A stretch of 64,000 nt of DNA, from the NCBI RefSeq assembly GCF_010685995.1, contig NZ_JAAGWK010000010.1:62001-126000 (forward strand), given 5' to 3'. The stretch is from Goekera deserti. GTDB lineage: Bacteria; Actinomycetota; Actinomycetes; Mycobacteriales; Geodermatophilaceae. Under the pieces are notes generated by a model. The model had not been told where the DNA came from and made no database searches. It saw nothing but the letters and a program-made list of their open reading frames with translations. The stretch's first letter is position 1; every line of letters begins with the position of its first letter. A program made the translations under genes and the position numbers. This document shows, piece after piece, positions 15,912-60,716 of the stretch.

Positions 15912-15961
15912 CGACACGAACTCCTCGCCACGATGGCCATCGTGGCGAGGAGTTCGTGTCG
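15912..15961. repeat. Perfect 50-bp palindrome
   Basis: Every base of CGACACGAACTCCTCGCC... (15912-15936) pairs with 15937-15961 without a loop or mismatch. It lies 10 bases after the lipoprotein stop, between two genes on the same strand. It can act as a terminator. The perfect symmetry and the GTGTCG end, shared with elements A and B, suggest a member of a dispersed palindrome family. Confidence 0.8.
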
Positions 15962-24273: not shown

Positions 24274-24354
24274 GCGGGAGTGGTGTAACGGCAGCCACGC
24301 CAGACTTAGGATCTGGTGCCTTCGGGCGTGGGGGTTCGAGTCCCCCCTCCCGCA
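24274..24354 (+). tRNA. tRNA-Leu (anticodon UAG)
   Basis: 81-base class II tRNA. The acceptor stem GCGGGAG (24274-24280) pairs with CTCCCGC (24347-24353), with discriminator A. The anticodon stem CCAGA...TCTGG encloses CTTAGGA with anticodon TAG. A long variable arm (TGCCTTCGGGCG) and the T-arm GGGGGTTCGAGTCCCCC follow. The CCA end is not encoded. The gene reads CUA-type leucine codons, rare in such GC-rich genomes. Confidence 0.96.
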
Positions 24355-58078: not shown

Positions 58079-58168
58079 TCAGAGGTAGGAGAGCAGCACC
58101 GACAGCGCCCCCAGCACCAGCGCCACCACGATGACGCCGGCCACGAGACGCTGTCGGCGCAGGCTCAT
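58079..58168 (-). CDS. 29-residue single-span membrane peptide
   Basis: An open frame from ATG 58168 (or ATG 58171) to TGA 58079: a basic start (MSLRRQRLV) and one hydrophobic helix (AGVIVVALVLGALSVLL) ending SYL. It fits between sfnG and the LigD-like gene, five bases before the latter. The layout is that of genuine tiny membrane proteins, but coding has not been shown; there is no clear ribosome-binding site. Confidence 0.4.
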   Translation of the reverse strand: MSLRRQRLVAGVIVVALVLGALSVLLSYL

Positions 58169-58204
58169 CATGCGCAGGACGGTAACCCGTCCAGCGGGTC
58201 GACG

Positions 58205-59353
58205 TCAGCGGGCCGCCGTCGCGGGGGCGAACTCGGTGGGCGCGAACCCGGCGGCCGCCTCCAGCTCGCGCACCACCGGCAGCACGCGGGCGCCGAAGTA
58301 CTCGATCTCCTCCTGGAAGTGCAGGAACCCGCAGAGGAAGAGGTCGACGCCGTGGCGGCGGAACTCCACGATCCGCTCGGCGATCTGCTCCGGCGTCCCG
58401 ATGAGGTTGGTCCGGAAGCCGTCGTTGTACTGCACCAGGTCCTCGAAGGAGGAGTCGGCCCACATGCCCTTCCCGTCCCCGGTCGAGTTGCCGGCCTGCT
58501 GCACGGCGTCCCGGAAGCCCTCGACGGCGGGCCTGTTCGCCTTGGCGACGATCTCGCGCAGCGTCTCGTGCGCCTCGGCCTCGGTGTCGCGGGCGATGAC
58601 GAAGCCGTTGAGCCCGAAGCGGACCCGGCGTCCCAGCGGGTCGGCGACCGCGCGGACGTCACGGATCTGCTCGTCGATGCCGGCGAGGTCCTTGCCGTTG
58701 CTGAAGTACCAGTCGGAGACCCGGCCGGCCATCTGCCGGGCGGCGGTGGAGTTGCCGCCCTGGAACACCTCGGGGTGCGGGCGGCCCGGTGAGGACAGCG
58801 GCTTGGGCTTGAGGTCGAAGTCGCGGAACCGGTAGAAGTCGCCGCCGAGCGTGTAGCCCTCCTCGGTCCAGATGCCCTTCAGCGCGGTGATGAACTCCTC
58901 GCTGCGGCGGTAGCGCTCGTCGTGCTCCAGCCACGGCTCGCCCATGGCGGTGAACTCGCCCTTGAACCACCCGGAGACGACGTTGACGGCGAACCGGCCG
59001 CCGGACATGTGGTCGGCGGTGGCGCCGAGCTTGGCCAGCACGCCGGGCTGCCACATGCCGGGGTGCACGGCGGCGATCACCTTCAGCCGCTCGGTGGCCA
59101 GCAGCAGGCCGAGGGAGAACGACGTCGACTCGTGCTGGAACTCCGCGCCGTAGCTGGCCATGTAGCGAACCTGGGACAGCGCGTACTCGAAGCCGACGGC
59201 CTCGGCGGTCCGCGCCAGCTTCCTGTTGTAGTCGAAGCCCCAGTCGGTGCGCTGCTCGATGGTGGAGGTGACCAGGCCACCACTGACGTTGGGGACCCAG
59301 TAGGCGAACTTCGAGGCCTGCAGCTCGTCGTCGGGGGTGTTCGGTGCGCTCAT
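58205..59353 (-). CDS. sfnG: FMNH2-dependent dimethylsulfone monooxygenase
   Basis: 382 residues from ATG 59353 with GGAG seven bases upstream. Luciferase-like TIM-barrel flavin monooxygenase; FAYWVPNVSGGLVTSTIEQR, YNRKLARTAEAVGFEYALSQ and AEFQHESTSFSLGLLLATE are typical of SfnG. It turns dimethylsulfone into methanesulfinate so that the sulfur can be assimilated. The leader peptide with a Cys-rich end and the hairpin upstream suggest control by cysteine supply. The reduced flavin must come from a reductase elsewhere. Confidence 0.92.
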   Translation of the reverse strand: MSAPNTPDDELQASKFAYWVPNVSGGLVTSTIEQRTDWGFDYNRKLARTAEAVGFEYALSQVRYMASYGAEFQHESTSFSLGLLLATERLKVIAAVHPGMWQPGVLAKLGATADHMSGGRFAVNVVSGWFKGEFTAMGEPWLEHDERYRRSEEFITALKGIWTEEGYTLGGDFYRFRDFDLKPKPLSSPGRPHPEVFQGGNSTAARQMAGRVSDWYFSNGKDLAGIDEQIRDVRAVADPLGRRVRFGLNGFVIARDTEAEAHETLREIVAKANRPAVEGFRDAVQQAGNSTGDGKGMWADSSFEDLVQYNDGFRTNLIGTPEQIAERIVEFRRHGVDLFLCGFLHFQEEIEYFGARVLPVVRELEAAAGFAPTEFAPATAAR

Positions 59354-59401
59354 CGGTGGACTCCTCGTGCCGGAGGGACAGGGGACGGACGTGTGCTCGG
59401 G

Positions 59402-59434
59402 CGGCCCGGGCAGGGGTGGTCGCTGCCCGGGCCG
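59402..59434 (-). terminator. GC-rich hairpin between leader peptide and sfnG (possible attenuator)
   Basis: Perfect 12-base arms (CGGCCCGGGCAG / CTGCCCGGGCCG) around a nine-base loop, 83 bases downstream of the leader stop and 49 bases before the sfnG start. It could be a transcription terminator or a translation-blocking stem whose formation depends on ribosome position on the leader. Confidence 0.55.
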
Positions 59435-59516
59435 GTGCGTGCGGTCGACGACCCGCGGTCGGGGCGTGCGGACGCGACGTGCGGTCGGGGGCGTGCGGTC
59501 GGGCGGGAGCGGTGGC

Positions 59517-59591
59517 TCAGCGCGGACAGGCACAGGTGCACACGAGCGAGAAGTCGACGACCCGGCGGCGGGTCAGCTCCTGGCGTGGCAC
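59517..59591 (-). CDS. Cysteine-rich leader peptide upstream of sfnG
   Basis: 24 codons from GTG 59591 to TGA 59517, ending LTRRRVVDFSLVCTCACPR: three Cys codons alternate just before the end. Actinobacteria carry short leader peptides of this shape (arginines, VD, then Cys-rich tail) upstream of sulfur-assimilation genes, and ribosome stalling at Cys codons under cysteine shortage controls the downstream gene in mycobacteria. Position, length and the following hairpin fit that model. The match to the family is by recognition; regulation here is inferred. Confidence 0.7.
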   Translation of the reverse strand: MPRQELTRRRVVDFSLVCTCACPR

Positions 59592-59654
59592 GGCACCACT
59601 GAACCACACCACTCTGGTAGAGAATGCGTCAGCACCCCGTGCCACAGTGACCAG

Positions 59655-60716
59655 GTGACCAGCGCCACCGAGATCAGCCTGCTCCGGATCGCCGCCCAGC
59701 GGCTGGCCGGGCCCCGGCACGCCACCCCGGCCGACGCGGTCCGCTGGTCGCTGTGCGTGCAGGGCCAGGAGCTGCCCGGGGCGCTGAGCGCGGTCGCGCT
59801 GCGCACCACCGACGGCAGCCGGGCCGGCGTCCGTGCGGCGATGGACGCCGGGGACGTCGTCCGGTCGTGGCCGATGCGCGGCACGCTGCACCTGGTGGCC
59901 GGCGACGACCTGCCCTGGCTGCTGGAGCTGCTCACCGCCCGGGCGCTGAGCGGGGTGGAGAAGCGCCGGGAGGTCGTGCAGCTGACCGTCGCGGACCTGG
60001 AGCGTTCCCGGGAGCTCGCGGTCGGGCTGCTGTCCGGGCGGCGCCGGCTGTCCCGCCCCGACCTGCTCGCCGCGCTCGGCGAGGCGGGCGCGCTGGTCGA
60101 CGGCCCGCGGGGCTACCACACGCTGTGGTTCCTCTCCCAGACCGGGACGCTGGTGCTGGGGCCCACCGACGGCACCGAGCAGCAGTTCGTGCTGCTCGAG
60201 GAGTGGCTGCCCGGGGCGCGCCGGCCGGAGCGGGAGGAGGCCCTCGGCGAGCTGGCGTGGCGCTACCTCGCCGGCCACGGCCCGGCGACCGTCCCCGACC
60301 TGGTGCGCTGGGCCGGGTTGACCGTGCGCGACGCCCGGGCCGGGCTGGCGCTGGTCCGCGACCGGCTGGAGTCGACGACCGTCGACGGCACCGAGCACTG
60401 GCTGGACCCCGCGACGCCGGAGCTGCTCGCCGCGCACCGCGCCGACGCGCAGCGGGTGCTGCTGCTGCCCGGGTTCGACGAGCTGGTGCTGGGCTACGCC
60501 GACCGCAGCTGCACCGTGCCGGCCGAGCACGCCGCCCGCATCGTGCCCGGCAACAACGGCGTCTTCCGCCCGACCGTCGTCGTGGGGGGCGTGGCGGTGG
60601 CGACGTGGAGGGTCACCGGCGCGCGGCGGGCGGTCACCGTCGAGGCGTTCGGCACCCTGGACCCCGCGGTCGAGGCCACCGTCCCCGACCTCGCCGCGGG
60701 CCCGGCCTGGGCCTGA
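59655..60716 (+). CDS. Winged helix DNA-binding domain protein (HTH_42, AlkZ-like family), QxQ type
   Basis: 353 residues from GTG 59655. HTH_42 layout: ISLLRIAAQRLAG, then RWSLCVQGQELPGALSAVALRT, a middle region GPRGYHTLWFLSQTGTLVLGP, and a C-terminal LLPGFDELVLGYADRSCTVP with GVFRPTVVVGGVAVATWRV. The V-Q-G-Q segment matches the Gln-X-Gln pair used by AlkZ-type crosslink glycosylases, so enzymatic function is more credible than for the paralogue at 2832. It is divergent from sfnG and its leader. Confidence 0.78.
   Translation: MTSATEISLLRIAAQRLAGPRHATPADAVRWSLCVQGQELPGALSAVALRTTDGSRAGVRAAMDAGDVVRSWPMRGTLHLVAGDDLPWLLELLTARALSGVEKRREVVQLTVADLERSRELAVGLLSGRRRLSRPDLLAALGEAGALVDGPRGYHTLWFLSQTGTLVLGPTDGTEQQFVLLEEWLPGARRPEREEALGELAWRYLAGHGPATVPDLVRWAGLTVRDARAGLALVRDRLESTTVDGTEHWLDPATPELLAAHRADAQRVLLLPGFDELVLGYADRSCTVPAEHAARIVPGNNGVFRPTVVVGGVAVATWRVTGARRAVTVEAFGTLDPAVEATVPDLAAGPAWA

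Follow-up and report, generated by a model that had tools for sequence, protein, structure and literature searches.

A conserved cysteine-codon leader frame upstream of sfnG in Goekera deserti and a shared UGU codon among its actinobacterial relatives

Introduction

Mycobacterial polycysteine short ORFs (uORFs) with leaderless starts reportedly act as cysteine-responsive attenuators, a finding attributed to Canestrari et al. 2020. Cysteine leader peptides have also been predicted before the cys operons of Mycobacterium and P. acnes and before cbs of B. longum, according to the sections available of Seliverstov et al. 2005 (PMC1262725). Other reports describe a ribosome-occupied, Cys-tailed small ORF before cysA2 of M. 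smegmatis (PMC4633059), a Cys uORF before cysS of Rhodobacterales that uses mainly UGC (PMC8632094) and a reannotation of Streptomyces lividans whose available sections give eight leader peptides, none of them named for cysteine (PMC8079986). Among the literature matches listed there was no sfnG leader peptide, and the one co-mention (PMC10454058, Mesorhizobium hypE) looks unrelated. Cys-rich leaders before sulfur genes are already known; as far as the literature was searched, sfnG appears to be a new target.

Results

A 24-codon cysteine leader precedes sfnG

The window, as the term is used here, is the whole 64-kb stretch of DNA that was analysed. The initial annotation had described in it a frame of 24 codons with Cys codons at its end, upstream of sfnG. 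Both the frame (59591..59517, Cys at codons 18, 20 and 22) and the identity of the gene (TIGR04021, 629.3 bits against a curated cut-off of 382.95) held up on analysis. The features of the locus are as follows.

59604..59619, minus strand: promoter-side element TACCAGAGTGGTGTGG, CACC-N5-GGTGTGG in most Klenkia-type genomes; putative function
59598..59603, minus strand: -10-like hexamer TTCAGT, 6 nt upstream of the leader's GTG, read by eye
59591..59517, minus strand: leader peptide ORF VPRQELTRRRVVDFSLVCTCACPR, 24 codons, GTG at 59591-59589, TGA at 59519-59517
59553..59579, minus strand: conserved nascent-peptide core E-L-T-R-R-R-V-V-D, codons 5-13, from pN/pS of nine Geodermatophilaceae leaders
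59532..59540, minus strand: Cys codon 18, TGC (59540-59538), a Thr codon and Cys codon 20, TGT (59534-59532)
59526..59528, minus strand: invariant Cys codon 22, TGT, nine residues after Asp13, from codon counts across leaders
59354..59516, minus strand: spacer from leader stop to sfnG start, 163 nt, C-rich and G-poor (skew 0.30)
59402..59434, minus strand: perfect GC hairpin, 12-bp arms and 9-nt loop, not conserved, no U-tract
59361..59365, minus strand: Shine-Dalgarno sequence AGGAG of sfnG
58205..59353, minus strand: sfnG, dimethylsulfone monooxygenase

The cysteines of the window leader are arranged as C-x-C-x-C and are not contiguous. The span 59402-59622 takes in the whole element apart from the sfnG ribosome-binding site. 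At gathering scores, Rfam models matched a single tRNA (24274-24354) in the whole window and no known riboswitch near sfnG. Directly 3' of sfnG lies a hydrophobic 30-residue ORF (58079-58171, minus strand) without a meaningful family match. On the other side, a divergent gene of the AlkZ-like DNA glycosylase family (PF06224; 59649-60716, plus strand) shares the intergenic region that holds the leader promoter.

The leader is conserved and selected as a peptide

At E <= 1e-100, sfnG was found in 10 of 112 genomes of the family, namely the window genome and nine others; the genomes searched included no second member of the window genome's genus. Eight of these nine other Geodermatophilaceae, all Klenkia-type, carry a leader at the same place, with a GTG start, invariant E-L-T-R-R-R and D, and Cys nine residues after the Asp. 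The initial annotation had named the lack of a conserved Cys tail in close relatives as grounds for rejecting the leader; a Cys is present at the key position in all eight that keep the leader, and the ninth, G075, lacks the leader entirely. Codon 18 is Cys in seven of the nine family leaders and codon 20 in the window leader alone. At the G075 locus (L014) the sfnG frame is open and the same promoter motif directly precedes the sfnG ATG, from which the leader appears to have been lost or bypassed as a unit.

Across the nine family leaders, pN is 0.027 and pS 0.283 in the core codons, and the pN/pS ratio over codons 2-22 is 0.50. The window leader also ranked first (E = 9e-5; runner-up E = 1.7) among 1028 six-frame stop-to-stop pieces when searched with a profile of 29 + 69 other leader cores, from which the sfnG leaders of Geodermatophilaceae had been excluded. 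The leader frame is confirmed to exceed chance and, judged by substitution patterns, its core is under selection at the peptide level. We regard it as scarcely credible that there is no gene here and that a conserved DNA or RNA element reads as an ORF by accident: the invariant Cys codon is indeed conserved at the nucleotide level, as TGT mostly followed by C (69/87), but in the rest of the core the third codon positions vary and the residues do not.

Promoter geometry predicts a leaderless start

In the family's leaders, a TTNNNT hexamer recognized by eye ends 6 nt (8/9) or 7 nt (1/9) before the GTG; a scan with the sigma-70 consensus gave no promoter near the window leader. From this geometry the leader start is predicted to be leaderless, with the GTG placed where transcription is predicted to begin. 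Outside the family, the start codon of sfnG leaders lies 35-40 nt downstream of TTGAC in 59 of 70 cases, and several of the 11 leaders that do not fit this spacing (e.g. L128, L130, L132, L148, L153) show GGAG before the start. In the window's family, the -10 hexamer of the leader is preceded by a CACC-N5-GGTGTGG-like element, a place taken by TTGAC in most sfnG leaders of other families. The initial annotation had pointed to a palindrome, CTCTACCAGAG, at 59612-59622. It is present, but its CTCT/AGAG arms are not conserved, aligned Klenkia-type promoters reading CCACCAGGTCGGTG or similar. On these grounds we ruled out the palindrome as an operator; what is conserved is the CACC-N5-GGTG-like element.

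Distribution of leaders before sfnG

Across the order, a sample of 397 genomes included 83 with sfnG at E <= 1e-120. All of their loci were taken; G081, the tenth member of the family, and a single additional copy bring the set to 85 loci, which were searched over 500-700 nt upstream of sfnG or less at contig ends (200 nt at L019, 355 nt at L091). Leaders were found in 9 of 10 loci of the window's family, 13 of 30 in family f15 and 1 of 4 in f3. Within the same 85 loci none preceded sfnG in f8, which we take to be Mycobacteriaceae (0/37, with L019 counted as lacking one on 200 nt of upstream sequence), f16 (0/3) or f6 (0/1).

A second and uneven sample consisted of the best 80 of 586 confirmed sfnG loci from named organisms, of which 62 had a leader. 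These were all loci of Streptomyces (54/54), Streptantibioticus (1/1), Klenkia-type organisms (3/3) and Pseudonocardia (2/2) and two of three from Nocardia; among the same best 80, the 17 loci of Rhodococcus, Rhodococcoides, Gordonia, Williamsia, Mycobacterium, Mycolicibacterium, Antrihabitans and Jongsikchunia had none. Duplicates were dropped (L098, L099, L100 and L155, whose leaders equal those of L009, L011, L010 and L017, and L178, equal to L093). The leaders of L057 and L159, missed by the strict pattern, enter these occurrence counts and are not among the 79 pattern-derived leaders. Leaders of this type extend well past sfnG: within the order, 116 of the 121 genomes sampled had at least one match to a leader profile at E <= 0.01, and NF042934 matched at E <= 0.001 in 50 of 60 genomes class-wide vs 0 of 14 control genomes. 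Two sfnG copies contain one in-frame stop each (TGA, TAG; G370:C45:24859-25953, G116:C234:350-1414).

Kinship with known leader families and sister leaders in the genome

The NCBIfam models NF042933 (leader_Ms5788A), NF042936 (leader_Ms4527A) and NF042934 match leaders of the relatives, but none of them finds the window leader. It was unmatched by NF042933 (cut-off 45 bits) and, up to E 10, by NF042934 (cis_reg_atten, cut-off 27 bits), where HMMER filters may mask weak matches. The relatives' leaders, in contrast, match the Cys-rich models NF042933 (E 3.3e-5) and NF042934. Two Klenkia-type sfnG leaders scored 23.5 and 20.8 bits on NF042933 (cut-off 45) and three others were unmatched. One Streptomyces sfnG leader scored 29.9 bits on NF042934, above the cut-off of 27, so that the model would call it a "putative leader peptide". 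Profile detection and the motif L-x2-R-R-x-V-D-x8-C place the window leader in the actinobacterial Cys-leader homology group, and by this sequence kinship it is a divergent relative of the Cys-rich leaders already described for sulfur genes of actinobacteria.

A search with the leader profile found five sister leaders in the window genome.

Sister leader before a gene resembling alkanesulfonate monooxygenase (NF001939 at 456.8 bits, under the cut-off of 510)
Sister leader between a thioredoxin-like gene and a DUF4395/rhodanese pair
Sister leader before a nitrite/sulfite-reductase-family gene
Sister leader before a PF13454 FAD-NAD(P)-binding protein
Sister leader L342, G000:C22:86500-87700, minus strand, before cysteine dioxygenase (PF05995); invariant Cys TGT

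Four of the five pass NF042934, at 27.6-28.5 bits in the genome search and 28.2-30.2 bits as peptides, and the cysteine-dioxygenase leader falls just under the cut-off of 27 (26.3 bits). The window leader is absent from the five NF042934 matches of the genome.

A near-invariant UGU codon nine residues after the aspartate

The motif L-x2-R-R-x-V-D-x8-C keeps a fixed spacing across the leaders; 4-13 residues were allowed when the sfnG set was searched, and the profiles of the other sets were built with the spacing, which is therefore partly built in there, although the codon is not. Cys occupies position Asp+9 in every leader counted, two of 94 examined (L240, L249) that lack it having been set aside to leave 92. 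With identical sequences collapsed, the codon used there is TGT for 72 of the 74 non-redundant leaders of sfnG and for 85 of 88 other leaders; the exceptions are L009 and L011 among the former and three among the latter. In a class-wide set, in which near-identical leaders were not collapsed, it is TGT in 28 of 28 leaders. Two of the 30 loci in that set were dropped: L337 yielded no leader, and the frame assigned at L320, some 300 residues long and away from the usual position, was wrong, and its TGC was left out of the count. L325 and L326 are also off the expected place, look genuine and were counted. All six leaders of the window genome have TGT at Asp+9.

Background use of this codon is low, the gene sets having been chosen by a GC-frame filter and not by annotation: in 42 window genes 8 of the 119 Cys codons are TGT, and the share is 2 of 55 at Klenkia-type loci, 51 of 338 at the named loci and 0 of 11 in sfnG genes themselves. 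Elsewhere in the leaders Cys is encoded predominantly by TGC, at positions +2 (30/30), +5 (26/26), +7 (25/27), +8 (8/9) and +10 (30/38); position +11, found mainly in Streptomyces sfnG leaders, has TGT in 11 and TGC in 2 of 13. The leader sequences are kin, so binomial p-values overstate their independence, and the contrast within leaders together with the six leaders of one genome is the better argument.

Two general causes of the UGU rule were ruled out. A preference for codons ending in T does not fit, other third positions being mostly G or C and other Cys codons mostly TGC. Pairing with the ribosome-binding site holds for part of Streptomyces but not generally; at the 10% level, complementarity was seen in 0 of 9 Geodermatophilaceae, 2 of 13 f15 and f3 loci and 4 of 30 other leaders.

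In 55 of 162 leaders (17/74 sfnG, 38/88 other) the Asp+9 codon is the sole Cys codon, which suggests stalling at one UGU, possibly assisted by the nascent chain. All 46 tRNA matches in the window genome were examined and include one tRNA-Cys, with anticodon GCA. This anticodon reads UGU by G-U wobble, and as it belongs to the sole tRNA-Cys, UGU is read in this way here, presumably more slowly. The UGU rule and the fixed Asp-to-Cys spacing appear to be new as far as the literature was searched.

The hairpin is an improbable terminator

The initial annotation had also noted a 12-base hairpin before the sfnG ribosome-binding site, implying classical transcription attenuation with 59402-59434 as the terminator. 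The perfect 12-bp GC stem exists, at -27.9 kcal/mol alone. Perfect hairpins of at least 12 bp (loop 3-15) occur at 6 places in the 64-kb window vs a mean of 0.8 in 20 dinucleotide shuffles, so that the hairpin stands out against chance, although the window has others of its kind. As an attenuator it fares poorly. A terminator scan of 59300-59750 found nothing and no U-run follows the stem; the spacers of relatives have only 3-5 bp helices (L008-L012) or different helices of 4-7 bp (L013, L015, L016), and no competing antiterminator was identified. Spacers in Geodermatophilaceae fold no better than their shuffles (mean folding z -0.01), and those of f15/f3 average -0.57. Streptomyces spacers are somewhat more structured (mean -1.33, 14 of 55 folded), which leaves room for structure there. 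Termination at this hairpin is in our judgement improbable. The longest perfect hairpin of the window lies elsewhere, as an inverted repeat at 15912-15961 with 23-bp arms and a 4-nt loop.

Shine-Dalgarno sequestration and a C-rich spacer as candidate read-outs

A second possible read-out is sequestration: the ribosome-binding site of sfnG would be paired with the Cys-codon tract until a stalled ribosome released it. The Streptomyces clade argues for it: in 20 of 55 loci the leader sequence CTCCTGTTGC (Ser-Cys-Cys codons) is the exact 10-nt complement of GCAACAGGAG at the sfnG Shine-Dalgarno sequence, and a complement of at least 8 bp occurs in 26 of the 55 vs 49 of 2970 leader/RBS pairs with a leader from outside the clade. 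L107 and L172 show matching changes on both the leader and the RBS sides, and for the 11 of these 55 loci that were folded, RBS and Cys tract paired with a probability of 0.60 when matched and 0.18 when swapped. Set against this, 29 of 55 Streptomyces loci stay under 8 bp (e.g. 7 nt at L114, 5 nt at L118), and the Streptomyces loci are closely related, with few independent events behind the complementarity.

The window RBS is predicted to pair with the leader (probability 0.81 vs 0.27 swapped), but its partner is a stretch of the leader other than the Cys tract, which itself pairs at 0.00 (0.09 swapped). Unusual complementarity was found in 0 of 9 members of the window's family, whose mean duplex energy is -12.3 matched and -12.4 swapped and whose longest perfect leader/RBS complement is 4-6 nt. 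In f15 and f3 loci, matched pairing lies under swapped (0.06 vs 0.17), and the UGU rule holds also where leader/RBS pairing is absent. We rate sequestration as less likely than not for sfnG here.

The composition of the spacer would fit a different read-out. C>G skew is positive in 79 of 79 spacers (mean 0.28; family 0.40), whereas among control intergenic regions it is positive in 109 of 160 (mean 0.09), and among controls from the window in 20 of 36 (mean 0.03); the sfnG starts that delimit spacers were chosen by script, and the controls may include unpurged sfnG spacers, which would act against the observed difference. Spacers after other leaders have positive skew in 89 of 91 cases, vs 36 of 77 (mean 0.00) upstream of those leaders. 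C-rich, G-poor composition is expected of Rho loading sites. Rho-dependent termination is the read-out toward which we lean tentatively, at a little short of an even chance, the C-rich spacer being a compositional hint drawn from related sequences.

Discussion

On this evidence we consider it likely that a cysteine-sensing, leaderless mini-ORF sets sfnG expression, with Cys-tRNA shortage halting the ribosome and turning sfnG on. Transcription would start at or beside the leader GTG, where a ribosome would initiate without a Shine-Dalgarno sequence. With ample Cys-tRNA, the ribosome would cross the Cys codons, end at UGA (59519-59517) and depart, and the spacer left bare would lead to sfnG being shut off, most likely by Rho-dependent termination in the window genome. 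When charged Cys-tRNA is scarce, the ribosome would halt at the Cys codons, chiefly at the UGU of codon 22, which would be read by the sole tRNA-Cys (GCA) through G-U wobble. The halted ribosome would mask the start of the spacer, sfnG would be expressed and sulfur would be drawn from dimethylsulfone. We infer the translation of the leader, the stall, the cysteine response and the Rho read-out. Of the leader attenuation of sfnG put forward in the initial annotation, the Cys leader is supported by conservation, coding selection, geometry, homology and the five sister leaders, and the roles given to hairpin and palindrome are not.

Some observations count against this reading. G075, which lacks the leader, keeps an open sfnG, and no leader was found before sfnG in 37 of 37 f8 and 17 of 30 f15 loci. 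Two further observations sit uneasily with a plain starvation switch. One sister leader precedes cysteine dioxygenase, whose induction would be unexpected under such a switch because the enzyme degrades cysteine. In multi-Cys leaders, the ribosome often reaches TGC codons before UGU.

A broader proposal is that actinomycete Cys leaders are nascent-chain-assisted arrest peptides, with UGU at Asp+9 as the sole trigger, which form one sensor for the sulfur regulon with a clade-specific read-out. The segment L-T-x-R-R-x-V-D, lying in the exit tunnel at a distance of 9 to 16 residues from the decoding site, would prime the ribosome, and the wobble step at UGU would be hypersensitive to Cys-tRNA charging (or to a sulfur-dependent tRNA modification). 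The read-out would be Shine-Dalgarno sequestration in Streptomyces and probably Rho in Geodermatophilaceae, with the window sfnG as one target. If arrest is special at Asp+9, the cysteine-dioxygenase leader and the order of TGC before UGU become easier to accept. We hold this proposal to be possible, though rather less probable than not. E. coli TnaC offers a parallel: at arrest, its Asp16 is placed nine residues ahead of the codon in the A site, and its read-out masks a Rho site. This is the same register as that from Asp to Cys here, an analogy that would imply no sequence relation. TnaC differs in that it senses free tryptophan at a stop codon.

Alternatively, the leader could be translated yet not sense cysteine, and feed ribosomes into sfnG by reinitiation or coupling. 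Leader genes have been proposed to boost expression through reinitiation in Actinobacteria, but in the sections available that proposal covers distances of 10-11 nt (PMC4833913); the spacer here measures 163 nt, and those at other loci 37-314 nt. Reinitiation also leaves the invariant Cys, the UGU codon and the sulfur-gene targets unexplained, and we find it very improbable.

If the cysteine-sensing mini-ORF is the correct reading, dimethylsulfone use would join the genes under cysteine-leader control, in non-mycobacterial soil actinobacteria. The fixed spacing and the near-universal rare UGU, for which UGC is a silent swap, offer a handle on how such leaders sense cysteine.

Comparison with known systems

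Among the closest described systems, mycobacterial polycysteine sORFs reportedly agree with this locus in their leaderless geometry, in having Cys codons close to the stop and in their placement before sulfur genes, and leaders such as MLTKRRAVDLCRVAGCCCCCCSC (L312, L314; f8) carry L-T-x-R-R-x-V-D-x8-C. They differ in that the Cys codons of the mycobacterial sORFs are reportedly contiguous, whereas the window leader reads C-x-C-x-C and many of its relatives have one Cys. Their published read-out is reported to be Shine-Dalgarno sequestration, which is not conserved in the window's family, and passages that cite this work do not name sfnG as a target. The leaders predicted in PMC1262725 are, in the sections available, likewise short frames whose Cys codons come close to the stop; they lack a conserved terminator, and a role for Rho was suggested for them. 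Unlike the leader here, they have runs of Cys codons and other target genes, and those sections do not mention sfnG. In the Rhodobacterales cysS uORF, as far as the available text of PMC8632094 describes it, Cys is encoded mainly by UGC, in contrast to the UGU of the actinobacterial leaders described here.
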